Below, piece by piece: positions 1 to 61,165 of a stretch of DNA of 64,000 bases. Position 1 is the first letter of the stretch. The number at the start of each line of letters is the position of its first letter. Source of the stretch: Gordionus sp. m RMFG-2023 (lineage: Eukaryota > Nematomorpha > Gordioida > Chordodea > Parachordodidae). The position numbers were made by a program, and so were the translations under genes. The stretch covers positions 34,511,366 through 34,575,365 of the forward strand of contig NC_088777.1 in NCBI RefSeq assembly GCF_954871325.1. Reading direction: 5' to 3'. The notes beneath the pieces are model-generated. The model was given only the letters and a program-made list of their open reading frames with translations, was not told where the DNA came from and did no database searches.

Positions 1-2226
1 AAATTCAGTGAGGATGTATCATAGATAGGTGACAATTGTCATAATCGTTATTTTTGAACTTTTTTCAAATTTTTAAAGCAAATAGCTAAAAATATATATT
101 CTAAACATGTTAAATTTAAAATTTGTGAGGATGTATCATAGATAGGTGACAATTGTCATATCGCTATTTTTGAACTTTTTCAAATTTTTTTAAAGGAAAT
201 AGCTAAAAATATATATTCTAAACATGTTGAATTAAAAATTCAGTGAGGATGTATCATAGACAATTGTCATAATCGTTATTTTTGAACTTTTTTCAATTTT
301 TTTAAAGGAAATAGCTAAAAATATATATTCTAAACATGTTAAATTAAAAATTCAGTGAGGATGTATCATATATAGGTGACAATTGTCATAATCGCTATTT
401 TTGAACTTTTTCAAAATTTTTTAAAGGAAATAGCTAAAAATATATATTCTAAACATGTTAAATTAAAAATTCAGTGAGGATGTATCATATATAGGTGACA
501 ATTGTCATAATCGCTATTTTTGAACTTTTTCAAATTTTTTTAAAGGAAATATCTAAAAATATATATTCTAAACATGTTAAATTAAAAATCCAGTGATGAT
601 GTATCATAGATAGGTGACAATTGTCATAACCGCTATTTTTGAACTTTTTCAAATTTTTTTAAAGGAAATAGCTAAAATTATATATTTTAAACATGTTAAA
701 TTAAAAATTCAGTGATGATGTATCATAGATAGGTGACAATTGTCATAATCGCTATTTTTGAAATTTTTCAAATTTTTTTAAAGGAAATATCTAAAAATAT
801 ATATTCTAAACATGTTAAATTAAAAATTCAATTGTCATAATCGCTATTTTTGAACTTTTTCAAATTTTTTTAAAGGAAATAGCTAAAATTATATATTTTA
901 AACATGTTAAATTAAAAATTCAGTGATGATGTATCATATATAGGTGACAATTGTCATAATCGCTATTTTTGAATTTTTTCAAATTTTTTTAAAGGAAATA
1001 GCTAAAAATATATATTCTAAACATGTTAAATTAAAAATTCAGTGAGGATGTATCATAGATATGTGACAATTGTCATAATCGCTATTTTTGAACTTTTTCA
1101 AATTTTTTTAAAGGAAATAGCTAAAATTATATATTTTAAACATGTTAAATTAAAAATTCAGTGATGATGTATCATAGATAGGTGACAATTGTCATAATCG
1201 CTATTTTTGAATTTTTTCAAATATTTTTAAAGGAAATAGCTAAAAATATATATTCTAAACATGTTAAATTAAAAATTCAGTGAGGATGTATCATATATAG
1301 GTGACAATTGTCATAATCGCTATTTTTGAACTTTTTCAAATTTTTTTAAAGGAAATATCTAAAAATATATATTCTAAACATGTTAAATTAAAAATTCAGT
1401 GAAGATATATCATAGATAGGTGACAATTGTCATAATCGCTATTTTTGAACTTTTTTAATTTTTTTTAAAGGAAATATCTGAAAATATATATACTAAACAT
1501 GTTAAATTAAAAATTCAGTGATGATGTATCATAGATAGGTGACAATTGTCATAATCGCTATTTTTGAATTTTTTCAAATTTTTTTAAAGGAAATAGCTAA
1601 AAATATATATTCTAAACATGTTAAATTAAAAATTCAGTGAGGATGTATCATATAGGTGACAATTGTCATAATCGCTATTTTTGAACTTTTTCAAATTTTT
1701 TTAAAGGAAATAGCTAAAAATATATATTCTAAACATGTTAAATTAAAAATTTAAGAGGATGTATCATAGATAGGTGACAATTTTCATAATCGCTATTTTT
1801 AACATTTTTTAAAGAAAATAGCTAAAAATATATATTCTAAACATGTTAAATTAAAAATTAAGTTAGGATGTATCATAGATAGGTGACAATTTTCATAATC
1901 GCTATTTTTAACATTTTTTAAAGAAAATAGCTAAAAATATATATTCTAAACATGTTAAATTAAAAATTAAGTTAGGATGTATCATAGATAGGTGACAATT
2001 TTCATAATCGCTATTTTTAACATTTTTTAAAGAAAATAGCTAAAAATATATATTCTAAACATGTTAAATTAAAAATTAAGTGAGGATGTATCATAGATAC
2101 GTGACAATTGTCATAATCGTTATTTTTAAACTTTTTCCAATTTTTTTAAAGCAAATAACTAAAGATATATATCCTAAACATGTTAAATTAAAATATCAGT
2201 GAGGATGTATCATAGATAAGGGACAA
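1..2226 (+). repeat. ~117 bp tandem repeat array (array A1)
   Basis: About 19 head-to-tail copies of a 112-119 bp unit run from the window edge to about 2226; the left end lies outside the window. Each unit reads: GTGAGGATGTATCATAGATA, the palindrome TGACAATTGTCA, a T-rich stretch, then AACATGTT and an A/T tail. Some copies lack a few bases. The last three or four copies (from about 1750) form a shorter, more uniform subgroup, suggesting local amplification. The same unit in the same orientation fills the left arm of the foldback element at 9467-11980, so this array is probably the inner part of another such element cut by the window edge, not a free satellite. No coding capacity. Confidence 0.95.
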
Positions 2227-3159
2227 AAAATGTTATTATATATACGAGTAGTAAGGTACATAATAATTTTTGAGTGATAAAATGAGATGCTAATATATTT
2301 CTTGTAATTTTAATTTATAAAAAAATTCTTAAATATGTTATTGTCATAGACTGGGTCAGAAAATCAACTATCACATAAACTCATCTATGTTTTATTCATA
2401 TTATATTTTTAAGTTTAAGGATATTAAAATATTTCCTCTTTGAAGTTTCTAGTTAGGATAAAATTTACTTGGCACATCTTACAATGATATTTATACCATG
2501 TTTTTTTTTCGAGAATAAATTTTATGCGATATCTCATGAAGGAAATTACATATCATTGTACAGAGAAATAACTTTGTATAAATTATCTGCACCAATATCT
2601 TTTATATCAATCTCTATCGATGACATTTTAAATTATATTGGAAACTAGATTGTGTAGATTTCTAAATATTAATTTAAAGGATTAAGATTTTAGAATTAAT
2701 TATAAATATATCTTAATAATTTTTATATGCATTTAATATTTAAAATCTCTCGTTTTAAGCCTATTTAGCAAGAAAAATATTGACTAATCCTGAAATTACG
2801 ATAATAGATATCTATACCTTTATATAATCTATGAGAAAAATTGCTCTCATAATATTCTTCTTAATAAAATAGTGAATAATTAACGCCTGAAAAAAAGTAT
2901 AGCGCTTTATAACATGGTTCAAAGTTAATCCCAGTATCAATTTTAATGTGTAATTTTTCTCAAGTGTTTAAAATTCTAAATCTTAATATCAAAAACTATT
3001 TTAGTTATCAATTTAAAGTCAAATAATATTAAAACACTAATATTCTACAGTATTCATAAAAAACAACAGCCTGAAACAAGAATAGTAAGCTCAAAACATC
3101 TTAAATATTTGATACATTTATAGTTTAAATATTTTTATTTAAATTATATATATTTATTA
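2227..3159. other. AT-rich stretch without recognisable gene
   Basis: No credible reading frame or RNA gene. Around 2660-2750 the sequence resembles 45100-45190, which is inside the hAT derivative at 43511-45286, so at least part is transposon flank or terminal sequence. Confidence 0.5.
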
Positions 3160-3202
3160 ATGTACAAAAAATTTAATTTAACAATATATATAGATATAAA
3201 AA

Positions 3203-6200
3203 TTATGTATAAAATTTATTATTCATGATATTGATATCCCATGAATTTAAACATAAACACTGTTTAAGTGTTTCGGAGGCCATGCGATTTCTTTTCTTTG
3301 TTACGGTGTCCACCCCTCTTGAGAAGACACGCTCGCTCTCAACGGATGTACTTTGCTGCGACAAAAAATCTTTAGCCATCATGCAAAGGTACGGAAAACG
3401 CTCAGAATTACAGCTCCACCAATCCAACACTGTAGTCGTTGCTGAGACTACTGGATCAGCTAGGTATTCGGCGATCTCGTTCACCATTGGAACTAACGAG
3501 GCTTTCCTAAAAATATAAAATAAATTATTAAAATTAAATATATCAACTTTGAGAAAATTTAAAATAGTTATAGAATATTAAATATATACCTTCTCAGACT
3601 ATTTAAGATAGTTATTGACATCATTTCACAATTATCGTCTTTTTCTGATATTTCTGGGGATATATTACACCGGTATTTACCATATAAAGCAATCAATTTT
3701 TCATAATAACATTCTTTGTTCATCCATAAAGGTATGAATGTTTTCTTGATACGTGGATCAAGAAAACTACACACATATATTTCGAAATTGTCCATAATAT
3801 TGATATATTTTTGGCATTTAGCCAACATAGATCTAGACGATTCTCCTATAACATTATTATTACTGGTTTCAATACTTGTTACCAGTAATATTTGAATCGT
3901 ATCTAAATATAGTGCATACATCCCTATTGTAGATGTATTCGTGCTTATCTCGAACGTTATTTTATAAAAAGGATATAAAAAATCCTCTATATCTTTTAAC
4001 ATTCTACTCTCATCTGTATTAATGTAAAAATTTTCATTGATACATCTTTTCCCCATTTTAACAATAGTTTCTAAATTCTATAAATCAAACAGTAAAAAAA
4101 TTAAATATTAATATTAATACCTTATTAATTTTACTAAGCATGAGATACTTTGAATTCCACCTAGTTGACACATCTAATGGAATTTTGCAATTACAAATAT
4201 CAACAAAATCCTGCATCAAGGAAGGACTTTTATGAATTTTTTTCACCAACATCTCAACTTTTTCTAAATCTGTTGAGATTGTTGGCAGTCCTTCTTGTAC
4301 AATCAAATTAATAATGTGGGCAAGACATCTAATTGTGTTAAAATTTTGGTTATATGTCTCACGAATTAAAGGAATTATGAGCTTTCCCGCCGAAAGCATG
4401 TTCGATCCATTATCATGGGTAATGGATGATATTTTATCTATTATTTTGTACTCTGTCATTATTGATAATAATAATTCTTTAATATCTTCACCCGTGTGAG
4501 GGTGGGCAAATTCCGTAATTGATAATAAGGCATTAGTTATATTCCATTTATCATTTATATAATGGACCGTTATGGCGCAATAACTTATTAAATTATTGCT
4601 GGTCCATATGTCTGTTGTTATTGCCATCTTATTTTTATAATTATGGAAGGAATTCATAATATTTGTTTTAGCCTCGTTATATATATTGTTTAAATATTTC
4701 ATAGCAGTTTGCCTGCACCAAACTTTGGAGGTGTTGTTTAAATATGTAAAGATGTCTTTAAAATTTTTACTATCATACGTTCTAAATGAAATATTTTCAT
4801 TGATGATATATTTGAGTATTAATTTATTTAAATGAAAATTATCGTCTGTTGTAAGTTTTCTTGCCCCTATAATAGAATCAGGCAAAGGTGGCGAATCATT
4901 GATTACTTCAGGATGTTTGGTTAGAAGATGTTTGCGCAAATTGGCTAAAATAAATTATATATATTATTAAATAAATTATATATATTATATATGTCGTATT
5001 TGGGATATGGAATCATGTGAGATTCGGAATCCCAACGTTGGGATTCAAGATCTTGAATCCCCACGTTTTATTCGGGATCTTTTTGTTTAAATATTTTTAT
5101 TAAAATATTTAAAAAATATTCCGAATCCCCATGAATAAAAAATAAAATAATATAATTACTTTTTCTTCTCTTTTTTACGGCTGGCACCACATAATTAAAA
5201 GGCCAAAATAAGGGATTTAAAAAGGGAATTTAAAAAAAAGTAAATAGTATAAAATTAAGGCATATAATGAATGAAAAGGGATGAGGTTAAGACATTTTTG
5301 TTTTAGAAAATATTAAAAAATATATTTATAAAAAATCCGAATTATTGCAACAATTATTCAATGCAATATGGCATTTCATTGAACATTTAAGCAGGGATCC
5401 AAACATTTATAACGGTTCAGTATATAAAAAATTATAATGGTTTATTTTTCTGGATGTAATATTGAGTTAGCCGTTCTAAAATATCAAATATGAATAAGGA
5501 AAAATACTATGTATCTTTAGGTTGAGACAAATAAGGTCAGACTCATTTAGAGATTGTTAAAACTTAATTATTTATAACAACGAACAAATTTTAAGTTGAG
5601 ATTATCAAAATGTTTTTTTTTAAAAAAAGCTAAGGACCAATATATATTTTTATTTAGTTTTTATATTTTTTTTTTACATATTTTTATATAGTTTTAATAT
5701 TTTAGTGTTTTATCATATTTTTTTAAATTATAACAATATCAATATTATCAAAATAAAATTTTAAAAAATAAAACAAATAACAATGGCAATATTTAGAAGT
5801 TTTGGAAGCAGGAAAATTTATTTTCTTTTTTGAGAAAATTAGAGAGTAAAATTTTGTCAGCCCAGGCAAATTCTGTTTCTAGTGAAAGGCTATTTTTCTG
5901 TAGCCAATCGCCTATTAGAGGAAAGGCGTACACAATTGAAATAAAAAAAATAGACATTCTTCTTTTTCTAAGTAAAAATTTGGATTTATAATATGTATTT
6001 ATTTTTTGTTATTATGGATTATGGAATTAAAGAAATAAATAAAATAAATTCAATAAAGTGAAAAAATTATAGCATTAAAGTTTTGAAATATTTAAAAACA
6101 CCGTGAATTTTCGGGCGTGAAACAAAATATTGCCTTTGAGTATTTAATGATTTAAAGCATAAAAGTAATACAATATTAATTATCTCTAAAAAATAAAATT

Positions 6201-8750
6201 TTCTGGTGAAAATATAATTTAATTGTTTTTTTTTAAAAAAGATTCCGAATCCCCTTAAATATTTTTTTAAAAAAAATTTATTTTTGTTATAAATATCTGA
6301 ACCAGGAGGTTCCAGCAACACAAATTTCTGTAGAAAGGGCTTTTTGTGTTATCGTCACTACGAACAAAAAGGAATCTATTTATACTTGAAAATATATAGC
6401 TTATATGTTCAAATAAATATTTAAAAATGAGTTATTTTGAATCTTATATATTTTTTTATATATAATTCATAAATGCTTATAATAAAAATAAATTAAAAGA
6501 TGGTGTTGCTTCAATAAAAAAAAATTTCTAACCGTAATGAACCTTTATAATTAGCTGAACCGAACGGAACCTTTATATAAATTCCTTCTCAAGCACCGTA
6601 ACCAAAACGTAACTATTATAATTTTTTATATACTGAACCGTAACCAAACTGAACCGTTATAAATAACGGTTCGGGTCCCTGCTTAAATGTTGCAATAATT
6701 CGGATTTTTTGTAAATATATTTTTTAAAACAAAAAAGCCTTAACCTCATCCCTTTTCATTCATTATATTTCTTAATTTTATACTATTTACTTTTTTTTTA
6801 AATTCTCTTATTAAATCCCTTATTTTGGTTTTTTAATTATATGGTGCCAGCCGCAAAAAAGAGCATGGGGATTCGGAATATTTTTAAAATATTTTTTTTA
6901 AAAATATTTAAAAAAAAAGATCCCGAATAAAACGTGGGGATTCAAGATCTTGAATCCCCACGTTGGGATTCCGAATCCCACATGATTCCCCAATACGACA
7001 TATATATTATTAAATAAATCAAAAGAAACTATATTCTAAACCCTGCCTCCTTTCGATTATTCAAACATTTGAATGTTGATGCATAATGCACTAACTAATA
7101 AAAATTTTAATACTGATATATTGCCTATCATTAATGTTAAGCCCGATTTGATCGATTTTTAAAAAGACCTGAATAATATTATGTAATCATGGAGATTTTA
7201 TAGATGACAGATAGGTTTTTATTTTACCAAATCTCGAGGCTTACTTATTATTTTGCTAAAATCCTAATTTGGCCATTTTTAAGAAATCGAAAGGGGTCGG
7301 CCGAAAAGTGATTGATTTGACAATGACCCTACAAAGAAGTATTAAATAATACTAAGAATTAATACCTATTTTGTTGTTAATAAGCTAAGTTACAATCAGA
7401 AATTAATAAATAAAATATATCAGAGGGCTAGATCGTATTTTAATTTTTTTATATATACCACCGGGCTGGGCCTAAAATTATTTATAAAAAAATATCCGAA
7501 CAGGACCGGCCATATATATCAAATTAAATATTTAAAATCGCTTTTATTAGCTAAAAATCTATTATAAATATAATATATTTTAAAAAAATCCGGGCCGGGC
7601 TAGCCGTATATTGTAAATTAAATATTTGTAATACCTATTATTAGCTATAAAAATCTATTATAAATAGAACTGTATTTATATTGATATAAAATTTATAAAA
7701 ATATTATTTAAAAATATCCTAAATAAAAAAATATATGTATATTATTTTAAAAATAAAATAAATTAACCAATCACAAAAGAACAATAATATATCAAAAAAA
7801 AATAACATAAAAAACATTTAAAAAAATAACAAAAAAATTCAATATAAAAAGAAGTCCGAGTCAAAAAAACGACCCAAACTCTGGGTCGGGGTCGCGACGT
7901 TTGAACAACATAATAATGAGCCCCTCCAAAAAAATAGTAACCTAACTTAATATTCTAAATAATTAATATTAAGTATAAATTATTACCTTTTTTGAAAAAT
8001 ATAGCCAGGTTTATATATTGAATATATTTTCTATATTTTAATTAGGTTTAAAATAATAAAAAATTAGAGTAAAAAATAAAAAGATAGGTAAATTTAGCAC
8101 TTAAATAAGATAAAATAGGCCATTATGAAGTAATAATTAAATCTTTATAAGCAAATATCGCAAAATTGACAGAGCTGTACCGTCATAAAAATTAAAATTT
8201 TTTTAATTTAGTTTTTATTTTTTTATATATTGAAAATAAATAAGTTATTATCCACTTTTAGCTTAAAAATATTTAAAAACTGGAGGAAAACAAAACAATT
8301 CTAGACCAACATTAAAATCCTAAAAACCCCGAAATATTTTATGTTTTTTTAAATATTAAAAAACATTACTGCCATCATAAGGAATAATTTCTTTTTAAAT
8401 TTGAAAATTTAATTTAATGTAACTATATAAAAACAAAAATTTATTAAACTTGTAGCGGTAGTGGAACGATATATTTTTTCGCAATGATTGCATTTTTTGT
8501 GTGATTTATTTGGACTATAATTATAATTTGATTTAATATTGAAACTACTATTAATCGCAGAAGAATTTAAATCCTGTTCTATTAGTGAATCCGAAAAAGG
8601 CTCCAACTAAAATTATAAATATATTAAAATAAAGGTTATAATTGCATAAAATCGAAATAATATCATAAAGGTTTATGGTTATTGATTTACTTGATTTTCT
8701 CTATCATCTTGAGTTGACCTTGATGGCGTAGAACTTGAACTTTGTGACAT
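3203..8750 (-). CDS. hAT-family transposase (5 exons, 610 aa)
   Basis: Spliced minus-strand exons: 8750-8691, 8606-8450, 4944-4121, 4077-3590 and 3506-3203. All introns are GT-AG and the joined length, 1833 nt, is an exact multiple of three: 610 residues plus stop. Seen in the protein: a BED-type zinc finger (C59, C62, H78, H83); the hAT RNase H-like core with first aspartate D184 in TTDIWTS and second D250 in THDNGSNM; the C-x2-H motif at 279-282 (RCLAHIINL); TRWNS at 334-338; a tryptophan pair at 539-540; and the C-terminal dimerisation/catalytic segment SVESERVFS with E568. Length and order match active hAT transposases, where the three acidic residues cut DNA at the element ends and create 8 bp target duplications. 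The start codon was chosen because ATG at 8750 opens an exon with a consensus donor and gives an N-terminus ahead of the BED finger. Function is inferred from motifs; activity is untested. Confidence 0.88.
5851..5991 (+). pseudogene. hAT transposase C-terminal relic 1
   Basis: A 46-codon open stretch ending in TAA holds the hAT dimerisation signature: ANSVSSERLF followed by KNLDL at the end, as in the usual ending with a conserved leucine-rich tail. Nothing upstream in this frame can be followed. It is a fragment of a transposase unrelated in sequence to the intact one at 3203-8750. Confidence 0.7.
6309..6389 (+). pseudogene. hAT transposase C-terminal relic 2
   Basis: A short + strand frame reads VPATQISVERAF, the hAT (S)xER-F signature with its usual preceding 'PAT', then ends at TGA after 26 codons. 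Different family from relic 1 at 5851-5991. Confidence 0.6.
7020..8400. other. rest of transposase intron 3, AT-rich
   Basis: No gene seen. At 7450-7620 there are dispersed GGGCTGGGCC, GGACCGGCC and GGGCCGGGCT words in a T/A background, the same style of subterminal word cluster seen at 27390-27490, 47785-47940 and 53942-54165, so a decayed GGCC-word MITE is likely here. At 7855-7900 there is an isolated GGGTCGGGGTCGCGAC stretch resembling the tip of the 9467 foldback. Confidence 0.4.
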
Positions 8751-9174
8751 CACACTAAGAAAAGTTTTATATAAAAATAATATTTAAGAAATGTTTTAAA
8801 TTGGACAACTTTTATTAATAAAATTTATGTTAATAATATTAAATTATAATTTTAAAAACAAAAAATGAATAAAATAAAAAAATTTAGATTTATACCCCTA
8901 AAAATAATAAAAAAAAATTTGGAAAGTTAAAAAAAATGATTATTAATCATATCCCTATCCCTAACAATGAAGAAAAGAAAAAATCTCAACAAATTTGCCG
9001 TCTAGCTGGCACCACTAAAAGTAAAATAAAATATCTTTTATAATTTTAGAATTTAAATAGTCACTTCACTTCCATATGGAATTTTTAAACTAATAAAACA
9101 ATAAATTTTTTAAATAAGTATTTGCGATTCCGGATGCATTTTTCAATTAAAATATGAATTTTTTTAAATATAAT

Positions 9175-9466
9175 TTAATAATTTAGGCGAGCTATATTTT
9201 TCATAAATGTAGTGTTAAGTCGAGTTTTTTTAAGTCGTACTGTAATTCTGAGCGTTTTCCGTACCTTTGCATGATGGCTAAAGATTTTTTGTCGCAGCAA
9301 TACATCCGTTGAGAGCGAGCGTGTCTTCTCAAGAGGGGTGGACACCGTAACAAAGAAAAGAAATCGCATGGCCTCCGAAACACTTAAACAGTGTTTATGT
9401 TTAAATTCATGGGATATCAATATCATGAATAATAAATTTTATACATAATTTTTATATCTATATATA
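9175..9466 (+). pseudogene. inverted copy of hAT transposase 3' end
   Basis: Reverse complement of about 3186-3420, nearly base for base, including the SERVFS region, the KKRNRMASETLKQC stretch, the stop codon and ~35 bases past it. A 2 bp difference after the CAGCAA codons breaks this copy's frame. Similarity stops at a TATATATA tract exactly where the foldback TAGTGTTG terminus begins at 9467. It lies opposite to the intact transposase, so the locus from 3186 to 9466 is bounded by inverted copies. Confidence 0.9.
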
Positions 9467-9599
9467 TAGTGTTGTTAAAACGCCGCGAGTCGCGACCCCG
9501 ACCCAAAGCTCGGGTCGTTTTATTCGACTCCGACTCAAAGTTTGGGTCGTTTTTTTCGACTTCGACCCGAGTTCAAGCCGAAAAAAACGACCTCGACCC

Positions 9600-9862
9600 A
9601 AAATATGGGTCGTTTTTTACGACTCCGACTCAAAATTTGGGTCGTATTTTTCGACTCAAATTTGAAATTTGGGTCGTATTTTTCGACTTAAACTTGAAGT
9701 TTGGGTCATATTTTTCGACTCAAACTTGAAGTTTGGGTCGTATTTTTCGACTAAAACTTGAAGTTTGGGTCGTATTTTTCGACTAAAACTTGAAGTTTGG
9801 GTCGTATTTTTCGACTCAAACTTGAAGTTTGGGTCGTATTTTTCGACTCCAACTCAAGGTTT
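9600..9862 (+). repeat. ~32 bp subterminal tandem repeat, left arm
   Basis: Seven to eight copies of a 32 bp unit containing TTTGGGTCGTATTTTTCGAC and CAAACTTGAAG. It gives a long repetitive open frame by chance, which is not a gene. Mirrored at 11585-11847. Confidence 0.9.
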
Positions 9863-10204
9863 GGGTCGTTTTTCTGACTCAGACTCAAACATCGGGTCGT
9901 TTTATTCAATCCGACTCAAAATATGGATCTTTCTTTTTAAAGACGACTTAAAGTTAGGGTTGCTTTTTTTCACCCTTAACCCAATATCTAGATCATTTTT
10001 TTTGACCAAAAGTCAAATAACATTTAGTATATATTAATATTATAGGCGGGAAAGTTACTTAAAGCTTCTTTAAATTATAATGCTCTGGATTAACTATTCA
10101 TCATAGTTATTTTTTAAAATTTTTAAGTGAAGATGCACCATAGAAAAGAGCCATTTGTTATGATGCTTATTTTTGAACTTTTTTAAATGAAATAGATGAA
10201 AATA

Positions 10205-11250: not shown

Positions 11251-11584
11251 TCTATTTCATTTAAAAAAGTTCAAAAATAAGCATCATAACAAATGGCTCT
11301 TTTCTATGGTGCATCTTCACTTAAAAATTTTAAAAAATAACTATGATGAATAGTTAATCCAGAGCATTATAATTTAAAGAAGCTTTAAGTAACTTTCCCG
11401 CCTATAATATTAATATATACTAAATGTTATTTGACTTTTGGTCAAAAAAAATAATCTAGATATTGGGTTAAGGGTGAAAAAAAGCAACCCTAACTTTAAG
11501 TCGTCTTTAAAAAGAAAGATCCATATTTTGAGTCGGATTGAATAAAACGACCCGATGTTTGAGTCTGAGTCAGAAAAACGACCC

Positions 11585-15655: not shown

Positions 15656-15659
15656 AATT

Positions 15660-17960: not shown

Positions 17961-17974
17961 TATGCATTAGTTTA

Positions 17975-48800: not shown

Positions 48801-51800
48801 TGGTAATTTTTTCATATTTTTTATTAATATTTATCTTTTTTAGATGTATTTAAGAATATTTGTTTTTTTAATCAATTTATATCAAAATATATGATTTTCC
48901 AAGGAGTAACGAGTAGGAAGAAAGGAGAATAATTTTTTTTTCGTGCTTAATTTTTCATATACATTTAATTTCTTTCATTAATTTTTTTTTCAAATTGGAT
49001 TTTAAATATTATTCAAATTCCCTCCTTATATAATATTCTATAAAAAATTAATGCCGAGGTCCCCTTGTTTAAAATGTGTCTCTAAATTTTGTTACATCTG
49101 TGAGGGCTATATATTGCCCGCACAAAAATGTCCAATTTCTCCAATCAAAGGATTTATGAAATTTATTACAATATTCCACTCTGCAATTTGGATAAACCAT
49201 TTGCCCCTAATTACAAATGTAAAACATGTTATAATTCTTTTAGGGTAAATGGAAAACTGTCATTTTTGCCTTATTCGAAACCTGCATTTTGGCAGGTAGC
49301 AAGAAATCATTTGTGGGAAATATATTAAATGTAAGCTATATTAAAAAAGATTTTATAAATAAAGGTAAATTTAAAAAATATAGGTTGTTAAAAATTGAGT
49401 AAGGATTTTATAAAAAAAATTTATAATAATAATAAGGAAGATTTGCTGCAAAAATTAAGATATGTTTTTAGTTATAGGGATCATTAGAACCGAAGTTATA
49501 AACCTTCAAAAAGTGCTAGAAATGACTTTTTGGCCACTTTAACCTAAAATAAATAAAAAAAAACTGACGTGCTAGAAAAAAACTGACAGCGGATTTAGAA
49601 TATGCATAAAAAACTGTCTTAAAACATGTTTATTTTATATTCTCCCAAAAAATCAAGTCGAAATTTGTCACACAGTGTTATTTATCTAAATATCTTTAGC
49701 TTAAAAGAAAAAATGATTTATATTTTAATTTATATACCTATAAAATAAAATAGCATGTACAAATAAAATTTAAAAACAAAAAAAATATTAAAAAATATAT
49801 ATGAGGGGTATAATTTATTTATAAATTCTAAATTTGTGTTTTTTTTTATTTATAGCATGAGTATATAAGCATAAATAATATAAAATAATAATTTAAAAAA
49901 TTACATTAAACAAATTCTATATAATAATAAATAGAAAATATAAAAAATGAATCAATGCTTTTTTATGTTATTTTTTTATAGCTGATTTTGATTATTTAAT
50001 ATCCAGTCTTTTTTTTTAAATGAATATTTTTAAAGTGGGTGTTATACTCAAAATGATTAAGCAACTTGTGAATGAGTTTTGCCTAAATAACAATTATTAT
50101 CGTCAGGTATAAAATATACTTTTTGCAATTTCATAATGCGGGTAGAAAAAAACAAGAGTCTGCCATACCGAAACAATGTGTCGTAGATCTTTTTTAATTA
50201 TGAGATCTTACTTTTGGCTTGAGCCTCAGTCAATTTTTTGACTCAAAAACAAGCTGAATTTAGAGCTAAGCATGGCTCAGATGTTTAAAATTAAATTTAG
50301 GCCAAAAGTTGGCTTGAGCCAAGTTATGAGCTGATTCGAGTCAATTTTCGACTAAAAACTGGCTGAGTTTAGGGCTTTGCCGGCTTGGCTCAGCTGTTTA
50401 GCAACACTAACACTAATCTTAAATAAATAAATTTCGCCTCAATAATCAGCTTGAGCCTGAGCTGAATTTTTGGCTTAAAAACTGGCTGAGTTTTTGGCTA
50501 AGCCAGCTTGGCTAAGCTGTTTAACAACACTGATATAAATGGTACATGAAGCGATTTTGCCTTATCCCTTAACACCAAATCCTAATTGATATGTATACTT
50601 TATAAGTTAATACCCGACCATGAGTATTGTACTGTGGCAATTATTTTTGCTAAATAGCCCATTGCAATGGGTTTATACCACCACAGTGTTTGTGAGATAA
50701 TCAAGTTTACTCCCATAATTGATTCGAATCTATGATGGCTAAGAGTATTTAGGAAGGTTTTTAAAACATTTAAATGATTCTGATGAATGCTGATTTTATA
50801 CGAAGAGGGAGGGCAAAAACTATTGCGTCTGGATGTGGAAAATTTGTTAAAAGAATTGATAAATATCATAACTCACAAATCATATTTTTTTTATTCTATA
50901 TTTTTCATAATATATTTGGCCTTTTCTCTAAAAATTTGTAGAAATCTTGGAAGAATGAATATGGATTATCTATCCTCTCATTTGACTATTCTGATTCATC
51001 CATCGTCATATGAAAGTAGTTATTATTTATCCATAAGGTGAAAATTCTGATTCCCTTTCATACAAGCTATCAGCTAAAATTAAGATAAGATTCCATGATA
51101 TGTTAGTGTAAAATTGAATATCGTTAAAAAGATATTTTATTTTAGATAAATAGAGATTCTATGTTACCCTAGCGCAAAATTAAATTTCATTATCATTATA
51201 CTTTAATGGAATCCAGAGTTACTATATTCTAGTAAACATCATGTTAGGGTCAGTAATGTTTTTGAAAAAATATTGATCAACCTGATATTTTTTAAAAACC
51301 AATCCAATATGATATTTATAGTTTTGGGTTATTTATAATACATTTGGCTAGTGTTATTAAATGGCTCAATAGTCTAAAAATTTAACTAACGATTTTAGCT
51401 AAAATAAATTACAGAGATTTTGCCCACAGTGGTAGATAGGATAGGTGTGAATATTTATTGGCAAAATTTCAAGGGGGTAGTTATTGTAGCAAAATAATGA
51501 TCCAACCATTTTTTTAAATATGTTAAATGAAGGAATTTAACAACATTCAACCATAAACATTGTACATAGTTTAAATGAAATAACTTTTGGAGAATAAAAA
51601 ATACACATTTTTACCATTATCAAAGTTAGTTAGTTCTTTGAATTGAAAATTGATTTTTTACAATATTGGTTAAAAGATAGAATAAAAATAAAACAAATAT
51701 CGGATTGGGATATCAGATCAATTTGTAGTAAAATTGGAAGATATTGGATCTGATAGGCAAAAAATTTGGCAAAGGCCTTTGATATTTATTATTAAAAAAA

Positions 51801-53190
51801 TTATAAATAATGTTACTTTGAAAATAACTTTTCTATATCATCTTCAGTGCAAATATATGGAAGATTCCTCAAGAATATCCTTCCACTATCTAGTACAGAT
51901 GGTACATAATTCATATTTGGATAATTTTCATTTCCTTCCCTCCTTCCATCAATATTAATTTCAATTTTAAAAGATTCTTTGCAGTTATAATTAGTAACCT
52001 CAGATTGTTTGATTTTCAAAATTTTTGTTTTAGCAATTCTCTCCATTTCTACAAACCTATTCTTGAGTAGTGTTTTGTTTCTTAGCAAGGCAAATTCAAG
52101 AGACACTTCATCTGTGAATTCAACCATAGCAATATATGAACCAATACTCTTTTTGGCAGATTTTATTTTCTCATCATTTTTTTTATAAATTCTAACTAAT
52201 TTCACACTTTGAATGTGATCTTGAGTAATTTTAGGCTCAAAAAATTTGAGAATTTGATTCTTGGTGACCTTGTTAGGCAAGTTAGATAGCTTTGCAATGT
52301 GCCTCTGTTGTATGATTGTTTTGGGTTTTCCAGAACTATTCAAGAAAAGAGGCATACATTTTTGGTGATTATCAATATCTTTATCTGGATTGGATTCAAT
52401 GTTAATGTTATCAGCTCTTAAAAGATCACACTTTATATAGTTATTATCATGCAATAAAACTTCTATTGGATTTGATATATTATTATTGTCAGATATCTTT
52501 TGCCTTTTAATTTTTTGTGACATATATTTTTTGTCAGAAATTTTTGTCATTTCATTATTAAGTGTAGTTTGTAATGAGTGATTATTGTTATATTCTATAA
52601 AAATGGAATTATAATTGCATATAATTAAATTACTATCATACCAATACCAGATGATATTTCTATTATATTATTAATCTTAGGTTCAATATCAAATTTCTAA
52701 ATATAATGAAAATTAATAATGAAAAAAAATTATAAAGTACTTTAATAATAGATTGTTTGTGAAATGCTGAACTATCTTTGGAATATCTACTCCAGGAACG
52801 TGGTTTGGATGTATCCTTCAAATCTGATGCTAACTGAACTTGAATTCTATATAATAAAAATAAATTCTAGTTTATAAAAGTTTTATAGACATACCTTGAG
52901 GTGTTTATAAAGGATTTATGAAATTTTTTAATGGCAAGAGCTGCTTGTTCATCATTTAAAAAGCCAATAAAAGCAAACTTTCTAAATTTTCCATTAGTTG
53001 CAAATTTTAATTGTAAATCTGTTATCTAAATATATTAAATAAGCAATAATATTAAGTGGAATTAATACATTTTAAAAGTAGATAAATATTTTAAATTACA
53101 TACCAATCCTTGAGTGGCAAATAATTCTTTTAACTTTTCAGGATTTTGTCCTATATAATCAGGTAAATTCTTTATAATTATTCTAGACAT
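24447..53190 (-). CDS. RBM19: RBM19/Mrd1-type six-RRM nucleolar RNA-binding protein (14 exons, 1029 aa)
   Basis: Exons on the minus strand: 53190-53104, 53025-52895, 52846-52741, 52696-52642, 52594-51817, 41708-41518, 38075-37891, 37677-37539, 36558-36508, 36243-36031, 33881-33660, 27177-27040, 26255-25911, 24895-24447. All introns are GT-AG and the sum is 3090 nt in one frame. The protein starts MSRIIIKNLP, as family members do. RRMs lie at about 2-80, 224-312, 363-440, 564-640, 679-757 and 789-878, with RNP1-like KGFGFVTF in RRM3, GYGFLTF in RRM5 and RGFAFVKF in RRM6; the conserved spacer QNWNSLFV...SAVKLALGET precedes RRM4. A basic, N/K-rich tail follows (881-1029). Known role of the family: nucleolar, binds pre-rRNA in the small-subunit processome and is needed for early cleavages leading to 18S rRNA. 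Six RRMs and 1029 aa fit animal RBM19 (human 960 aa) better than five-RRM fungal Mrd1. The gene is stretched to 28.7 kb by transposons in its introns, the longest (10.1 kb) being intron 5. Confidence 0.95.
24896..25910 (-). other. RBM19 intron 13
   Basis: AT-rich. 24930-25150 shows patchy similarity to 34320-34520 in intron 10 (GAAACGAAACAGGG / CGGAACGGTG, CAGTTTGCTT), suggesting two old copies of one repeat. Nothing else seen. Confidence 0.4.
25911..26255 (-). CDS. RBM19: RBM19 exon 13, RRM6
   Basis: Residues 766-880. A Ser/Asn-rich linker, then RRM6: RNP2 ILVRNVPF, RNP1 RGFAFVKF, and the end RRLVLEWARDD typical of the last RRM of the family. A ~15-residue insert (KAPETKKNSSSTNQS) sits before RNP1. 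Donor GTAAAAAT at 25910. Confidence 0.95.
26256..27039 (-). other. RBM19 intron 12
   Basis: AT-rich, no transposon recognised. Confidence 0.5.
27040..27177 (-). CDS. RBM19: RBM19 exon 12, second half of RRM5
   Basis: Residues 720-765: RNP1 MGYGFLTF and the closing GKEFNGHKMELLRS. Acceptor AAAAAAAG, donor GTTTTATT. Confidence 0.92.
27380..27495. repeat. GGCC-word MITE remnant in RBM19 intron 11
   Basis: ATGGCCGGGCCTAC, TCCCGGGCAAAA and TTCCGGGCTAGG words in a T/A background; same style as 53942-54165 and 47785-47940. Ends are not resolved. Confidence 0.45.
27788..27846. mobile_element. terminus of a GTAGC-word hAT element
   Basis: Ends GGTAGCGGTGCTACTAGC then AACACTG; compare the GTAGCGCGCTA words and AACAACACTG end of the complete copy 43511-45286. 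The other end was not found, so this is a one-ended remnant. Confidence 0.5.
30177..32820 (-). pseudogene. LINE endonuclease-reverse transcriptase ORF (broken)
   Basis: In order on the minus strand: 32820-32554, endonuclease start (IACIQETKWKG, then GVGIILS); 32540-32340, IIGGDLKAHV with a TGA stop soon after; 32338-31358, the 326-codon stretch with the end of the endonuclease (TQIDYMLISRR, QHKLLVMD) and the start of the RT (KARGSDDISIESLKAL); 31282-31022, RT motifs FGFMPGRSTTDTIHAIRQ and VFLDLEKAFY; ~30920-30830, EGVHQGSALS and the catalytic FADD, then a TAA; 30799-30617, GLKVNREKTEYMVIGG; 30362-30177, C-terminal KRERGRLKLQWGHKV. At least two stops and two frame changes. The endonuclease is of the type often mis-annotated as 'craniofacial development protein 2-like'. 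Confidence 0.9.
33090..33159 (-). repeat. tRNA-like head of the LINE
   Basis: Minus strand: box A-like GGGGTGGCCTAGTGAG and box B CCCAGGTTCGATCCTGG (a five-pair T arm with the TTCGATC loop). No matching acceptor stem, so not a working tRNA gene. It lies inside the LINE's target duplications and starts at the very first bases of the unit. Confidence 0.85.
33660..33881 (-). CDS. RBM19: RBM19 exon 11, linker and first half of RRM5
   Basis: Residues 646-719: Asn/Ser/Thr-rich linker, then STLFVKNLNFSTTNFELQ (RNP2 LFVKNL). Acceptor CATGCAG, donor GTTTTTTT. Confidence 0.93.
33882..36030 (-). other. RBM19 intron 10
   Basis: 34556-35215 is dense in ATTCG/CGAAT words (AATCGAATAATTG, CATTCGTACGAAT, ATTCGTATTTG), like 23195-23672: probably a decayed MITE of that word family. 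35245-35300 has a small GC-rich patch (GGGCACGAAGCCCGGC). Other parts are featureless AT-rich DNA; a minus frame of 100 codons at 35070-35372 overlaps the word repeats and has no recognisable motif. Confidence 0.45.
36031..36243 (-). CDS. RBM19: RBM19 exon 10, main part of RRM4
   Basis: Residues 575-645: FGQISRLVLPPSYGLSCIVE, then ARKAFKSLAYTRFKDVPLYL and EWAP, a nearly diagnostic RBM19/Mrd1 stretch. RNP1 is degenerate (GLSCIVEF), as is usual for this RRM in the family. Confidence 0.96.
36508..36558 (-). CDS. RBM19: RBM19 exon 9 (51 nt micro-exon), RNP2 of RRM4
   Basis: Residues 558-574: EFKRSKTIILVKNLPA. Too short to stand out alone, but both splice sites are consensus (TTTTAG / GTTAATTT) and it supplies exactly the missing piece between exons 8 and 10. 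Confidence 0.92.
36559..37538 (-). other. RBM19 intron 8
   Basis: AT-rich, no feature recognised. Confidence 0.5.
37539..37677 (-). CDS. RBM19: RBM19 exon 8, conserved spacer before RRM4
   Basis: Residues 512-557: SSSAVKLALGETEVVNEMKT and FLIENGVRLESF, matching the family's SAVRLALGET...FLxxNGVxLxSF segment. Acceptor TATTTTAG, donor GTTTGTTT. Confidence 0.94.
37891..38075 (-). CDS. RBM19: RBM19 exon 7, spacer between RRM3 and RRM4
   Basis: Residues 450-511: KKTQNWNSLFVDSAAIANVM and ATKYKVDKREL, the conserved 'WNxLF...A..A..Y.V.K' region. Acceptor TTTTCTAG, donor GTTATTTA. Confidence 0.94.
39023..39253. mobile_element. 215 bp hAT MITE with 8 bp target duplication
   Basis: Element 39031-39245 lies between direct copies of GTCTCAAT (39023-39030 and 39246-39253). 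Left tip TAGTTGTTACACGGGTCG, right tip CGAGTCGTTTAACAACACTA; the left tip has lost the middle GTG of the group consensus TAGTGTTGTTAAA. No coding. It carries single GGGTCG and GAGTCG words, so belongs to the GTCG-word group. Confidence 0.92.
40421..40965 (-). pseudogene. retroelement remnant, region downstream of the RT domain
   Basis: The minus strand encodes segments with the recognisable signature (H)xWLEAVPS, RYRLGRDIYLPH, KGRHGLSC and GRFNRYWAINSI, a region found C-terminal to the reverse transcriptase in a class of elements common in invertebrates. The 11990-12112 scrap resembles the still more C-terminal part of the same class. GC content is higher than the surroundings. Broken; embedded in RBM19 intron 6 on the gene's own strand. 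Confidence 0.6.
41518..41708 (-). CDS. RBM19: RBM19 exon 6, second half of RRM3
   Basis: Residues 386-449: YGRLIEVNLPLDK, RNP1 KGFGFVTFL, LDGTIFMGRMLHLIPSHE. Acceptor TGTATTAG; donor GTTAGATA. Separated from exon 5 by the 10.1 kb intron 5. Confidence 0.95.
41709..43140 (-). other. RBM19 intron 5, left part
   Basis: Mostly AT-rich. At 42600-42623 the minus strand reads TGGTATCGCAGCGGGGTCAG, like a tRNA-Met-type primer binding site, next to GCCGCAAGGCTTTCGGCG at 42650-42667; this may be the edge of an old LTR element, but no LTR pair was found. Confidence 0.3.
43150..43345 (+). repeat. tRNA-derived SINE-like unit, copy 1
   Basis: Leader GCTGTGCCACACTCACAGTG, then a tRNA-like part 43226-43297 with box A GTGGCCTAATCGGC and box B TGGGTTGGAATCCCA, a poly(T) run and TCCAACTTGGTGGTTTCGTC. 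T arm pairs perfectly; no acceptor stem, so not a functional tRNA. A second copy is at 45435-45622 in the same orientation. Confidence 0.8.
43503..45294 (-). mobile_element. hAT deletion derivative, GTAGC-word family, with 8 bp target duplication
   Basis: Element 43511-45286 sits between direct copies of CTAGAGGT (43503-43510 and 45287-45294). Tips are CAGTGTTGTTAAACGC and TTTTAACAACACTG; just inside, AGTAGCGCGCTA, GCTACCGCTATCG words form small hairpins on both sides. The minus strand keeps only the front of a transposase: a BED-type finger (45003-44791, C-x2-C and FKKHL) and a second exon (44641-44416) with SQKLAVKVIMNFIIDTVQDI, the segment that precedes the catalytic core in hAT proteins. 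The catalytic core is absent, so it could move only with help in trans. Confidence 0.93.
45435..45622 (+). repeat. tRNA-derived SINE-like unit, copy 2
   Basis: Matches copy 1 from the GTGTCACAATTTATA leader to TGGTGGTTCCGTCC. tRNA-like part 45503-45576 with box A TATGGCCTAATCGGC and a perfect box B GGGTTCGAATCCC. The hAT element 43511-45286 lies between the two copies but did not split one unit: both are complete. Confidence 0.8.
45640..46550. other. RBM19 intron 5, unassigned
   Basis: Starts with an isolated TAGGCCCAGCCCGGGTA word patch (45629-45646). The rest is AT-rich; a decayed coding segment is possible near 45690-45830 but carries no motif I can name. Confidence 0.35.
46559..47415 (+). 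mobile_element. one-ended array element (array A3)
   Basis: Tip CGTGTTGTTAAAAAGCCGAG followed by a GGCTC-word tip, then about seven copies (90-118 bp) of a unit with CGATTATGACAATTGTCAC, GGTACATCTTCA and AACATGTT. It is intermediate in sequence between arrays A1/A2 and A4. Copies decay away from the tip. No right terminus and no target duplication were found. Confidence 0.8.
47785..47945. repeat. GGCC-word MITE remnant
   Basis: Words GAACGGGCCGGCCCTG, CTTGCCAGGCC, GATCCTGG and a tip GGCAATGCAAAATACCTCTG; the tip TACCTCTGCAG recurs at 54149-54157. Confidence 0.5.
48563..48893 (+). repeat. imperfect tandem duplication of ~160 bp
   Basis: Two neighbouring copies share TTTTAATTTGTAC, GCATTTTTxAAGCAAAATT, TATTTATCTTTTTTAG and TTTATATCAAAAT. 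No link to other arrays. Confidence 0.65.
49051..49330 (+). pseudogene. cysteine-rich transposon-associated ORF remnant
   Basis: The + strand encodes CLKCVSKFCYICEGY early and PNYKCKTCYNSF and KPAFWQVARNH later. This order (C..C, FCxIC, then W/F-P..C..C, then (P)xxW....H) matches a protein family widespread in invertebrate genomes and associated with mobile DNA. The piece is broken and lies in RBM19 intron 5 opposite to the gene. Family name not assigned. Confidence 0.45.
50200..50534. mobile_element. two termini of a GGCTGAGCC-word hAT family
   Basis: GGCTTGAGCC, GGCTGAGTTT, GGCTCAGCTG words end at GTTTAGCAACACTA (about 50409), and a second series ends at GCTGTTTAACAACACTG (50532). Both are right-hand ends. 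A left-hand end of the same family is at 62473. No pairs with target duplications found here. Confidence 0.6.
50535..51816. other. RBM19 intron 5, right part
   Basis: Nothing recognised except a lone tip GTGTTATTAAATGGCTC at 51353. Confidence 0.4.
51817..52594 (-). CDS. RBM19: RBM19 exon 5, RRM2 and first half of RRM3
   Basis: Residues 127-385. A basic, Asn-rich linker; RRM2 at 224-312 (AKLSNLP... IAMVEF), divergent; then RRM3 start SGRIFLRNLPYICTEDDIEK. The open frame is interrupted only by the donor GTAACATT. Confidence 0.95.
52642..52696 (-). CDS. RBM19: RBM19 exon 4 (55 nt)
   Basis: Residues 109-126 (KFDIEPKINNIIEI...) in the linker after RRM1. Supported by TATATTTAG acceptor, GTATGATA donor and exact phase fit on both sides. 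Confidence 0.8.
52741..52846 (-). CDS. RBM19: RBM19 exon 3, end of RRM1
   Basis: Residues 73-108: RIQVQLASDLKDTSKPRSWS, equal to the family's RITVEF...DPxKPRAWS. Acceptor TTATATAG, donor GTACTTTA. Confidence 0.94.
52895..53025 (-). CDS. RBM19: RBM19 exon 2, core of RRM1
   Basis: Residues 30-72: LKFATNGKFRKFAFIGF and KKFHKSFINTS, a near match to animal RBM19 (RKFGFIGF, HFNKSFIDTS). RNP1 is KFAFIGF. Confidence 0.96.
53104..53190 (-). CDS. RBM19: RBM19 exon 1, start of RRM1
   Basis: ATG at 53190 gives MSRIIIKNLPDYIGQNPEKL; the MSR start placed directly on RNP2 is characteristic of the family, which fixes the start. Donor GTATGTAA at 53103. Upstream to 53445 is AT-rich with no clear TATA or initiator; promoter not identified. 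Confidence 0.95.
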
Positions 53191-55477: not shown

Positions 55478-55479
55478 AA

Positions 55480-56205: not shown

Positions 56206-56211
56206 GGGTAC

Positions 56212-57760: not shown

Positions 57761-58423
57761 GTTTGTTTTAATCCGGGTTCATTGTTTTTGATATTAGAAA
57801 GATGTTTTTTAAATTTATTTATAAGTAAATAATAACTTTTTATATCTTCTTATCTTATCTATCACATTGGTCATAGATCTGCCGAAAGTTAGCGAATGTG
57901 AATTATAAGGAGGCCCACCCTCCCTATAATTTTGCTGAATTTTTTTTCTCAGGGATACCAACACTTGTACAGATGTATATTTATCAAAATGAGTGGAATT
58001 ACGCCCTATCCAATTTGTAGTTCTAGAGTGAGGTATAGTTATGGGTGTGAGGTAAGAAAATAAAAACTATTCTTCTAAATACAAAATAGCTATTAATTAT
58101 TTAGTTAAAAAAATTTCATTTTAGATATCGTATTTTAAACTAAATATTATGTAATCAGTAAAATACATATGACTTGATATATTTTCCTTTCGTTATATAT
58201 TCTTAACTTCACTTTGTAATCGGAAAAAATTATATTTTGCTTCTCATAATTTTTTTCTAACATCAAATTTATATACCTTTATCATACTATTTGGGTCTAT
58301 AAGGTAAGGTGCCTAGTCATTAGTGTTGTTAAAAAGTCGAGTTCTTACGACTTGCGACTCGAGTCGTAGTCGTAAAAAACGGCTCCGACTCAAGCCGATC
58401 AAAGAGCCGAATGAGCCGACTCA

Positions 58424-58506
58424 CTTAGTAGGCTCGCTTAGTCGGCTCGCTTAGTCGGCTCGTGTAGTCGGCTCACTTAGCCGGCTCGCTTAGTCGGCTC
58501 GTTGGG
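58424..58506 (+). repeat. 13 bp subterminal tandem repeat
   Basis: Six copies of AGTCGGCTCGCTT with one or two changes. Right arm has only about two (61330-61365). Same period as the array at 57665-57735 of a sister family. Confidence 0.9.
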
Positions 58507-58681
58507 TCTGCTCAATTTTTTTGTTTTTTTATAAAATCTGGTAAATTGCTAAATTTTGGGGAAATGATTAATGTGAACAAAATTATAATAAGAATATGTT
58601 GTTTTAGTTTTTCGTATTTTTTTGGCATAAATGGGTTAAAATAAGTATTGCTAAGGCTAACATGTTTAAATAAAATTTTAG

Positions 58682-59035
58682 TGAAAATGTACCCTTGATA
58701 AGTGACAATTGTCATAATCGTTGTTTTTAAAGTTTTTTGTATTTTTTTGATGTAAATGGGCTAAAATAAGCATTGCTAACATGTTTAAATGAAATTTTAG
58801 TGAAAATGTACCCTTGATAAGTGACAATTGTCATAATCGTTGTTTTTAAAGTTTTTTGTATTTTTTTGATGTAAATGGGCTAAAATAAGCATTGCTAACA
58901 TGTTTAAATAAAATTTTAGTGAAAATGTACCCTTGAGTTTTTAAAGTTTTTCGAATTTTTTTGACGTGAATGGGCTAAAATAAGCATTGCTAACATGTTT
59001 AAATGAAATTTTAGTGAAAATGTAACCTAGATACA
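58682..59035 (+). repeat. ~119 bp array, left arm (array A4)
   Basis: Three to four copies oriented like array A1: GTGAAAATGTACCCTTGATA, AGTGACAATTGTCATAATCG, AACATGTT. Same order of blocks and the same palindromic cores as A1, but diverged elsewhere. Confidence 0.93.
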
Positions 59036-59944
59036 GGGTTTCCCATTCTAAATAAGAAAATCATAATATTTTTTTAATTTTTGTCAATTTTTCTTTAACT
59101 TTTATTTATTTTAGTTATTCCTTTTTAATTTTTTCTAAATTTTTGCGATTTCATAACGTTTTTTTTCTTACTGTATCTTTTCTCAATTTATTTCTAACCT
59201 TTTGTGATTTTCTTTACTTTTATTTTTCATACTATATTACGTTTTTTTTCATCATAGATACAGATATAATATTCTTTATATGATTTATACATTTTAATCT
59301 TTTGTATATATTTTAACCTTTTCAATCTGGTCATTTTTAATCTTTATTTTTTTGAGCATTTATCTATTTTTTCTTCTCATTTTTGATAATTATTTTTTGA
59401 AATTATATTTAATGTTTTTGGCAGACAATATAACAATTGCTAAATTATAAATTAATTGTTTGGTTTACCTTAACTGTAATACCAAACGATATTTAAATTA
59501 ATAAAATATAATCATTTTTAAATTCTTATTTTTAAAATTATCAAAAATGAGAAGAAATAAAATTGAGAAATGCTCAAAAAAATAAAGATTAAAAATGACC
59601 AGATTGAAAAGGTTAAAATATATACAAAAGATTAAAATGTATAAATCATATAAAGAATATTATATCTGTATCTATGATGAAAAAAACGTAAATTGTTAAA
59701 AAAATAGACCTAAATTTATAAATTGAAGAAAAATAAATTGAGAGAAGATATAGTATGAAAAATAAAAGTAAAGAAAATCACAAAAGGTTAGAAATAAATT
59801 GAGAAAAGATACAGTAAGAAAAAAAACGTTATGAAATCGCAAAAATTTAGAAAAAATTAAAAAGGAATAACTAAAATAAATAAAAGTTAAAGAAAAATTG
59901 ACAAAAATTAAAAAAATATTATGATTTTCTTATTTAGAATGGGA

Positions 59945-61165
59945 AACCTTGTATCTAGGTACATTTTCACTAAAATTTCATTTAAACATGTTAGCAATGC
60001 TTATTTTAGCCCATTTACATCAAAAAAATACAAAAAACTTTAAAAACAACGATTATGACAATTGTCACTTATCAAGGGTACATTTTCACTAAAATTTCAT
60101 TTAAACATGTTAGCAATGCTTATTTTAGCCCATTTACATCAAAAAAATTCGAAAAACTTTAAAAACAACGATTATGACAATTGTCACTTATCAAGGGTAC
60201 ATTTTCATTAAAATTTCATTTAAACATGTTAGCAATGCTTATTTTAGCCCATTTACATCAAAAAAATACAAAAAACTTTAAAAACAACGATTAAGACAAT
60301 TGTCACTTATCAAGGGTACATTTTCACTAAAATTTCATTTAAACATGTTAGCAATGCTTATTTTAGCCCATTTACATCAAAAAAATTCGAAAAACTTTAA
60401 AAACAACGATTATGACAATTGTCACTTATCTAGGGTACATCTTCACTAAAATTTCATTTAAACATGTTAGCAATGCTTATTTTAGCCCATTTACATCAAA
60501 AAAATACAAAAAACTTTAAAAACAACGATTATGACAATTGTCACTTATCTAGGGTACATCTTCACTAAAATTTCATTTAAACATGTTAGCAATGCTTATT
60601 TTAGCCCATTTACATCAAAAAAATACAAAAAACTTTAAAAACAACGATTATGACAATTGTCACTTATCAAGGGTACATTTTCACTAAAATTTCATTTAAA
60701 CATGTTAGCAATGCTTATTTTAGCCCATTTACATCAAAAAAATTCGAAAAACTTTAAAAACAACGATTATGACAATTGTCACTTATCTAGGGTACATCTT
60801 CACTAAAATTTCATTTAAACATGTTAGCAATGCTTATTTTAGCCCATTTACATCAAAAAAATTCGAAAAACTTTATAAACAACGATTATGACAATTGTCA
60901 CTTATCTAGGGTACATCTTCACTAAAATTTCATTTAAACATGTTAGCAATGCTTATTTTAGCCCATTTACGTCAAAAAAATTCGAAAAACAACAACGATT
61001 ATGACAATTGTCACTTATCAAGGGTATATTTTCACTAAAATTTCATTTAAACATGTTAGCAATGCTTATTTTAGCCCATTCACGTCAAAAAAATTCGAAA
61101 AACTTTAAAAACAACGATTATGACAATTTTCACTTATCTATGGTACATCTTCACTAAAATTTTAT
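59945..61165 (-). repeat. ~119 bp array, right arm (array A4)
   Basis: About ten copies, inverted relative to the left arm, spaced 113-119 bases. Copies are almost identical to each other; the last copies toward the tip are more diverged. Confidence 0.95.

Follow-up and report, generated by a model that had tools for sequence, protein, structure and literature searches.

The window analyzed here, a stretch of 64,000 nucleotides from the genome of Gordionus, a nematomorph (parasitic hairworm), corresponds to C3:34511366-34575365 of a 287-Mb assembly and contains four regions of tandem repeats. We found that these arrays form the two inverted arms of hAT transposons belonging to one family, and that each repeat unit retains a block, GTGACAATTGTCATAATCG, as a likely internal protein-binding site. 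This agrees only in part with the original prediction, in which the arrays were regarded as a satellite of ~117-bp units with two conserved palindromes, or cores, kept at a constant spacing.

Repeat arrays in the window

Tandem Repeats Finder and nhmmer revealed a repeat unit of ~119 bp that was common to all four arrays, so that the proposed sharing of one unit was borne out. The arrays were located close to the predicted places, although arrays 2 and 4 each proved to consist of two inverted arrays (Table 1). The first core, TGACAATTGTCA, occurred 35 times in the window, and 35/35 occurrences were inside arrays, while the second core, AACATGTT, occurred 49 times, three of them outside (46052, 49223 and 49623). 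The 17-mer GACAATTGTCATAATCG, allowing up to three mismatches, was found at 46 places in the window compared with 0.17 expected by shuffling.

Element AB and its transposase

Arrays 1 and 2 belong to a single element, termed AB. Its right tip was followed by the eight bases AGCCACCT at 11981-11988, and the same bases were foretold to lie upstream before the upstream DNA (locus L009) was read. They were found as foretold, directly preceding the left tip TAGTGTTGTTAA at window position -952, and AB is thus bounded by an exact 8-bp target site duplication (TSD). The left tip itself was located 192 bases further out than the position expected from the arm alignment (-760).

When the five predicted exons were joined, they gave an uninterrupted frame of 610 amino acids between the two arms of AB, with the same span and length as previously proposed. 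The suspected link between arrays and transposase was supported as well, since the gene lies between the arms of one TSD-bounded element. The predicted protein contained a Dimer_Tnp_hAT domain (4.9e-22) and an N-terminal BED zinc finger (zf-BED, 1.9e-6; 28.2 bits, cut-off 20.6), together with a hAT-like_RNase-H match (1.6e-4) whose 22.3 bits were below the cut-off of 27. It also matched four Hermes-type PDB sequences, one of them across residues 176-602. An 8-bp TSD is characteristic of hAT elements, and AB combines such a TSD with hAT transposase domains, a BED finger and short terminal inverted repeats. The best protein matches of the transposase and of the long interspersed nuclear element (LINE) fragments in the window were from Gordionus sp. 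m RMFG-2023, with identities of 53-94%, none being identical.

The right part of AB was found to be duplicated, with 9467-10617 being 100% complementary to 10830-11980. We considered 9467-11980 as a separate transposon and rejected it; its flanks were unlike (TATATATA and AGCCACCT), and the segment consists of the right arm of AB and its inverted duplicate. At 9240-9480, an end-1 tip was joined to TATATATA, which recurs in 3185-3413, and the tip arm was duplicated at 100% identity; this junction has the appearance of a self-insertion, or of an insertion into a sibling element. Nested repeats lie in the long second intron (4945-8449) of the transposase gene, namely inverted arms at 4982-5356 and 6684-7010 (81%) and, near 7913, a stray GTCG-rich tip.

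Elements C and D

The window was searched for TAGTGTTGTTAAA-type tips (up to two changes) paired by their 8-base flanks, random 8-base flanks matching exactly at a frequency of 0.000235. Three exact pairs were obtained, namely element C (array 3), element D (array 4) and a pair at 43511-45286 without an array. The pair of element C was the weakest of the three, since ATATAAAT contains only A/T. Its left tip, TCGTGTTG, is a variant of the TAGTGTTGTTAA type, and element C was exceptional in having a single array near the left tip on the minus strand, opposite to the other left-arm arrays. The two arms of element D were identical in 999 of 1,027 aligned columns, with identity falling to about half in the outer 200 bp. 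Long inverted arms with tandem repeats were found in D, in AB and in a further four copies with a transposase. We assign the arrays to the arms of hAT elements, and the idea of a free-standing satellite was abandoned.

The element at 43511-45286 was hAT-like, with tips CAGTGTTGTTAAA, an exact TSD CTAGAGGT and GTAGC-type tip repeats, and was devoid of 119-bp arrays.

Copies across the genome

We fetched 19 loci on contig C1 by the core pair and examined them for tip pairs with duplications. Exact 8-bp duplications enclosed arrays in L010, L015 and L026, a duplication matching at 7/8 bases was present in L014, and L025 showed an exact duplication with looser tips, for which 736 pairs were tested. 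Three transposase-bearing copies with one tip of each type were also bounded by exact TSDs: C2:29833303-29848156 (CACCACGC, 14,854 bp), C1:16159601-16173098 (GTCATGGG, 13,498 bp) and C2:53666293-53679167 (TAATAAAA, 12,875 bp). Together with AB, C and D, this gave 10 array-bearing elements with exact TSDs and one with 7/8. Additional pairs came from a loose tip search, in which up to four changes were allowed and 108-828 pairs were tested per locus; those in L016, L021, L024 and L028, and further ones in L025, had poor tips and were not trusted, and the search gave no pair in L020, L023, L027 and L012. The L014 element (2785-6537), 3.75 kb in length with its 7/8 duplication, was nearly all one array between two tips, with 30 nhmmer hits.

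The TSD-bounded elements carried TAGTGTTGTTAA-type tips at their two ends, and some of these tips departed from that sequence by one or two changes (TAGTATTG at the left of L014, TAGTGTTGCG in L025). AB, L010, L014, L015 and L026 each carried one end-1 tip (TTAAAACGCCGCGAGTCGCG) and one end-2 tip (TTAATCGGCTTAG, with small changes). The order of the arrays was also uniform: a plus array preceded a minus array in 7/7 two-array loci fetched by the core pair, in 4/4 chosen without the cores (L032 and L045 having a single unit on the minus side), in 4/4 transposase-bearing copies, and in AB and D. These four copies were examined by short stretches, which showed a plus array at one end and a minus array at the other; TSDs were found in three of them, and in the fourth the array extended past the stretch examined.

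The relation between transposase and tips was assessed with the 25 transposase places and the first 100 exact end-1 tips listed, the former on C1 and C2. Of the places with at least 60% identity, 10/14 had a listed tip on the 5' side at a distance of no more than 12 kb, compared with 1/14 on the mirror side; for places below 60%, it was 0/11, and for random places 73/20,000. The genome search gave at least 105 transposase matches, a lower bound as 72 of 4,140 candidates were scored, and in at least 17 places, including that of the window, the main transposase exon was at least 97% identical and stop-free, which bears only indirectly on transposition activity. Transposase relatives adjoining arrays were detected by tblastn in 6/19 loci (L016, L017, L019, L022, L024 and L028); they were not counted as the same element because no TSD ties them to the arrays and the pieces in L024 and L028 lie in both orientations.

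The repeat unit itself is abundant. A non-core 19-mer, CAGTGAAGATGTACCATAG, was found at 20,846 genome places with up to three mismatches (control 61), and the core 17-mer at 23,511 places with up to one mismatch (control 1). Exact core pairs numbered 10,538 (control 0), and end-1 tips with up to three mismatches 260 (control 0). More than 20,000 unit places, at one unit each, amount to about 2.5 Mb, or 0.9% of the assembly.

Conservation of the first core and its flank

The window arrays are homogenised within elements and do not constitute independent evidence, so weight was placed on array C and on 20 genome loci that had been selected with a non-core 19-mer and hence without the cores. In the consensuses of these loci, changes were found in 0/240 positions of the first core and 1/380 of the 19-base block, compared with 104/1280 in the other non-ascertained columns; the corresponding rates in the pooled units were 5.8%, 6.4% and 16.3%. 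Exact TGACAATTGTCA was kept in 85/137 genome units not chosen by the cores, and ranked 4 of 104 among 12-mer windows, the top one being ACAATTGTCATA. A further set of 22 loci, mostly chosen by the core pair and thereby favouring the cores, showed 1/264 changes in the first core, at rank 1.

The units of array C are diverged, some being nearer to AB and some nearer to D. Here the block had 9/152 changes compared with 176/753 elsewhere (P 7e-8), or with 46/224 in the neighbouring complex sequence (P 4e-5), and none of 10,000 column shuffles gave a window as low at widths of 12 or 19. Like array C, array 1 conserved the first core, as did array 4 in its right part. Across the three consensus lineages of the window, the 19-column invariant run was marginal (P 0.055) in a test that omitted A_797, C_46853 and the minus-strand B rows; a test of array relatedness omitted A_797 and masked the C_46853 tail, and one unit set excluded units with fewer than 80 model columns. 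The expectation of a constrained site in each unit was supported by the block, which stands out both in array C and in the loci chosen without the cores.

The conservation was neither limited to the palindrome nor symmetric about it. In particular, changes in array C were 4/48 and 1/48 in the two palindrome halves, 3/48 in the TAATCG flank, and 14/48 and 11/48 in the next flanks. TAATCG had 1/120 changes in the consensuses of the 20 loci and 7.5% in their pooled units, and among 12-base windows in genome units the best kept had their centres to the right of the dyad. The dyad symmetry originally assigned to the kept site was thus not upheld, the flank being about as conserved as the palindrome halves. 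The kept site is asymmetric GTGACAATTGTCATAATCG, 17-19 bp in length and extending to the right of the dyad. The 19-mer core had no exact match in viral_contigs and genome_contigs, which says little, since neither collection consists of eukaryote genomes as such.

The second core and the spacing

Of the two palindromes thought to be conserved, only the first was clearly above the rest of the unit. In array C, AACATGTT had 12/59 changes compared with 173/846 elsewhere and showed no conservation, and in genome units not chosen by the cores it was exact in 50/137 and ranked 52 of 108 among 8-mer windows. Some constraint was apparent in the 20 locus consensuses (4/160 vs 104/1280, P 0.004) and in the pooled units (9.4% vs 16.3% elsewhere, P 1e-11), where the neighbouring columns 113-119 had 11.8%. 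The 22-locus set gave 0/176 at rank 1, although this set favours AACATGTT. The second core is at most mildly constrained.

The spacing between the cores, which had also been considered conserved, was no better kept than elsewhere: of 312 distances from core 1 to core 2, 55% equalled the mode (sd 5.1), as opposed to 92% of 343 from a non-core anchor to core 1. From core 2 to the next core 1, the proportion was 72% of 315. Unit spacing over all loci showed a second class that was ~10 bp shorter (108-110). This class probably reflects slippage between the T5 repeats in the unit, a simpler account of such deletions than helical phasing.

Interpretation and alternatives

Four full elements were measured, at 12.9-14.9 kb. 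Such an element comprises, from one end to the other, the 8-bp duplication, the tip TAGTGTTGTTAA, GTCG-rich short repeats, a 119-bp array, the five-exon BED/hAT transposase gene, an inverted second array, and then again a GTCG zone and a tip. Some copies are shorter, keeping the tips and one or two arrays, and are presumably moved in trans. Tandem duplication would have multiplied a putative protein site in both arms, and GTGACAATTGTCATAATCG, kept as the rest of the unit drifts, may be bound by the BED finger of the transposase or by a host DNA-binding factor. The anatomy of the elements, their target duplications, the intact predicted transposase gene, the copy number and the conservation of the block were observed directly; binding, the identity of the binding protein, movement in trans and a transposition gain from additional copies are what we infer.

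Several observations weigh against this interpretation. Fourteen of the 19 C1 loci yielded no trusted TSD pair, even with the looser tip search included, and the 60% identity line that separates the transposase places was drawn after the table was seen. The core was not significantly conserved in the left part of array 4 (6/36 vs 82/410, P 0.41) or of array 2 (6/72 vs 93/654, P 0.11), and the core is absent from the element at 43511-45286, whose tip is similar and which has an exact TSD of its own. The distance from tip to first core also varied widely, from ~56 bp in C to ~790 in the right arm of AB, with values of 306 and 382 in D. Additionally, the tips of AB and D carry GTCG repeats that look more like ordinary hAT subterminal repeats, and the outer 120 bases of element C contain no GTCG-type repeats.

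These last points bear on which protein would recognize the block. It is a tentative proposal that the BED transposase of the element itself recognizes the block as an internal site, present in several to tens of copies per arm; the arms would then be transposase-loading arrays. A host factor is about as likely as the transposase to be the binder, because the tip distance varies and the GTCG tips resemble hAT subterminal repeats. That such a factor binds the block, with the arrays serving the element as enhancer, insulator or architectural sites, is a serious possibility, although short of an even chance. It fits with the preservation of the block in consensuses of subfamilies with unlike tips (D, C, L025 and the AB type) and in loci adjoining diverged transposase relatives. 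One of these, in L028, is ~42% identical and differs in the C-terminal half of the finger, yet the core is intact in the array; however, that gene and array may belong to different elements, and relatives in L024 and L028 occur in both orientations. BED fingers, moreover, bind quasi-palindromic repeats in Hermes, according to the available text of PMC10368747, a point against the host factor.

Alternatively, the block may have no function, the arrays being by-products of tandem duplication and gene conversion and the block reflecting recent shared sources or differing mutation or recombination. The homogenisation within elements is in keeping with this, as are the marginal result in the three window lineages and the two sub-arrays without significance. 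We regard this explanation as rather unlikely, because the block stands out in array C, whose units are diverged, and in the loci selected independently of the cores, and is also better kept than its neighbouring complex sequence. The block further contains a CpG, a dinucleotide that is usually mutable.

The proposal from which the analysis started, that a satellite preserves a pair of protein sites, both of dyad symmetry, now appears very improbable. Both cores are frequent, exact pairs of them abound genome-wide, and both rank first in the 22-locus set. Against this, the second core was unremarkable in units not chosen by the cores and in array C, the conserved stretch around the first core extends in one direction, the spacing is not specially kept, and the arrays lie inside transposons. 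We therefore prefer hAT elements with inverted array arms and one retained block in each unit.

Other features of the window

LINE-like reverse transcriptase fragments were found at 31022-32868, with RVT_1 in one open reading frame (ORF) and relatives among Gordionus proteins. ORFs at 25849-26301 and 51813-52667 contained RNA recognition motifs and are perhaps host genes with introns; tried as a host marker, the latter gave no match at E 0.001.

Table 1. Positions of array, element and transposase features, numbered from the first base of the window
Feature	Position	Strand	Remarks
Element AB, transposase-bearing hAT element	-952 to 11980 (1-11980 inside the window)		12,933 bp; C3:34510413-34523345
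Array A (array 1), left-arm array of AB	1-2226	+	119-bp units; Tandem Repeats Finder, nhmmer
Transposase gene	3203-8750	-	five predicted exons, 610 amino acids
Transposase exons (predicted)	8750-8691, 8606-8450, 4944-4121, 4077-3590, 3506-3203	-	GT-AG introns
Inverted copy of transposase 3' end	9240-9466	+	98.7% like 3185-3413; ends in TATATATA, joined to internal end-1 tip
Inverted duplicate of right arm of AB	9467-10829	+	tip, GTCG-rich zone, 119-bp unit array
Array 2, first inverted array	10125-10829	+	
Array 2, second inverted array	10830-11322	-	
Right arm of AB	10830-11980	-	array reaching 11322, then GTCG-rich zone and, at 11980, end-1 tip
Element C	46558-50532		8-bp TSD ATATAAAT at 46550-46557 and 50533-50540
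Array C (array 3)	46606-47409	-	one-sided, near left tip of element C
Element D, non-autonomous foldback	58321-61437		8-bp TSD CTAGTCAT at 58313-58320 and 61438-61445
Array 4, left-arm array of D	58606-59033	+	
Array 4, right-arm array of D	59951-61229	-	

Comparison with known systems

Satellites are thought to arise inside transposons, with the mobile source and its enzyme often missing, as in the available account of Tetris. A table in PMC9659126 lists satellites from several transposon types, with no hAT among the part available. Satellite-armed transposons are already known (Tetris, Galileo), and a hAT family with satellite arms was not found in the literature searched, outside which most subscription papers fall; searches with the core letter strings returned only papers with unrelated titles, titles being what was compared. 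Long inverted repeats are reported to abound in hairworm mitochondrial genomes in the available portions of PMC6649704 and PMC10380579, and the nuclear Gordionus elements are also long inverted repeats.

Tetris, a foldback transposon of Drosophila virilis, is the closest in architecture by its description in the available text of PMC4079207. Its long inverted arms have an outer domain and, inside it, AT-rich tandem repeats of ~220 bp, compared with 119 bp in Gordionus, and its variable copy number, 8-10 bp TSDs and arrays able to grow into satellites are likewise reminiscent of the Gordionus elements. No transposase was found for Tetris and its superfamily is an indirect assignment, with Mutator suggested, whereas the Gordionus element has an intact predicted hAT transposase between its arms; the comparison is one of descriptions, not of sequences. 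Galileo of Drosophila has tandem repeats in its terminal inverted repeats that are said to hold additional transposase binding sites, as told in the same text of PMC4079207. Compared by description in the same way, the two systems share tandem repeats inside inverted arms. The Galileo transposase is a THAP-domain protein of the P superfamily, while that of Gordionus is of the BED/hAT type and its binding to the block is putative.

In Hermes, two BED domains bind a pair of quasi-palindromic repeats cooperatively, and the subterminal repeats are precisely placed relative to the tip, as stated in the available text of PMC10368747. Hermes and the Gordionus elements share a short terminal inverted repeat, subterminal repeats and a transposase with BED finger and hAT domains, but the scattered short motifs of Hermes contrast with 119-bp tandem arrays. 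The palindromic part of the block fits cooperative BED binding, while the variable tip distance does not fit precise placement.

One genome thus contains elements that have both a transposase and inverted satellite arms, short copies consisting of little more than tips and array (L014) and more than 20,000 unit places, with a short box kept in the array lineages examined. Two questions become testable in this material: whether satellite-like arms aid the movement of a transposon, and why short satellite boxes persist. The 17-bp CENP-B box is kept in alpha satellite monomers and is bound by a transposase-derived protein, and the Gordionus block resembles it as a short box kept in satellite-like units. 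CENP-B is a domesticated host protein of another superfamily, unlike the Gordionus transposase, which is still inside its element and whose binding is putative. If the transposase does recognize the block, the more than 20,000 sites would represent a satellite box bound by a still-moving transposase, a forerunner of a CENP-B-box-like arrangement.

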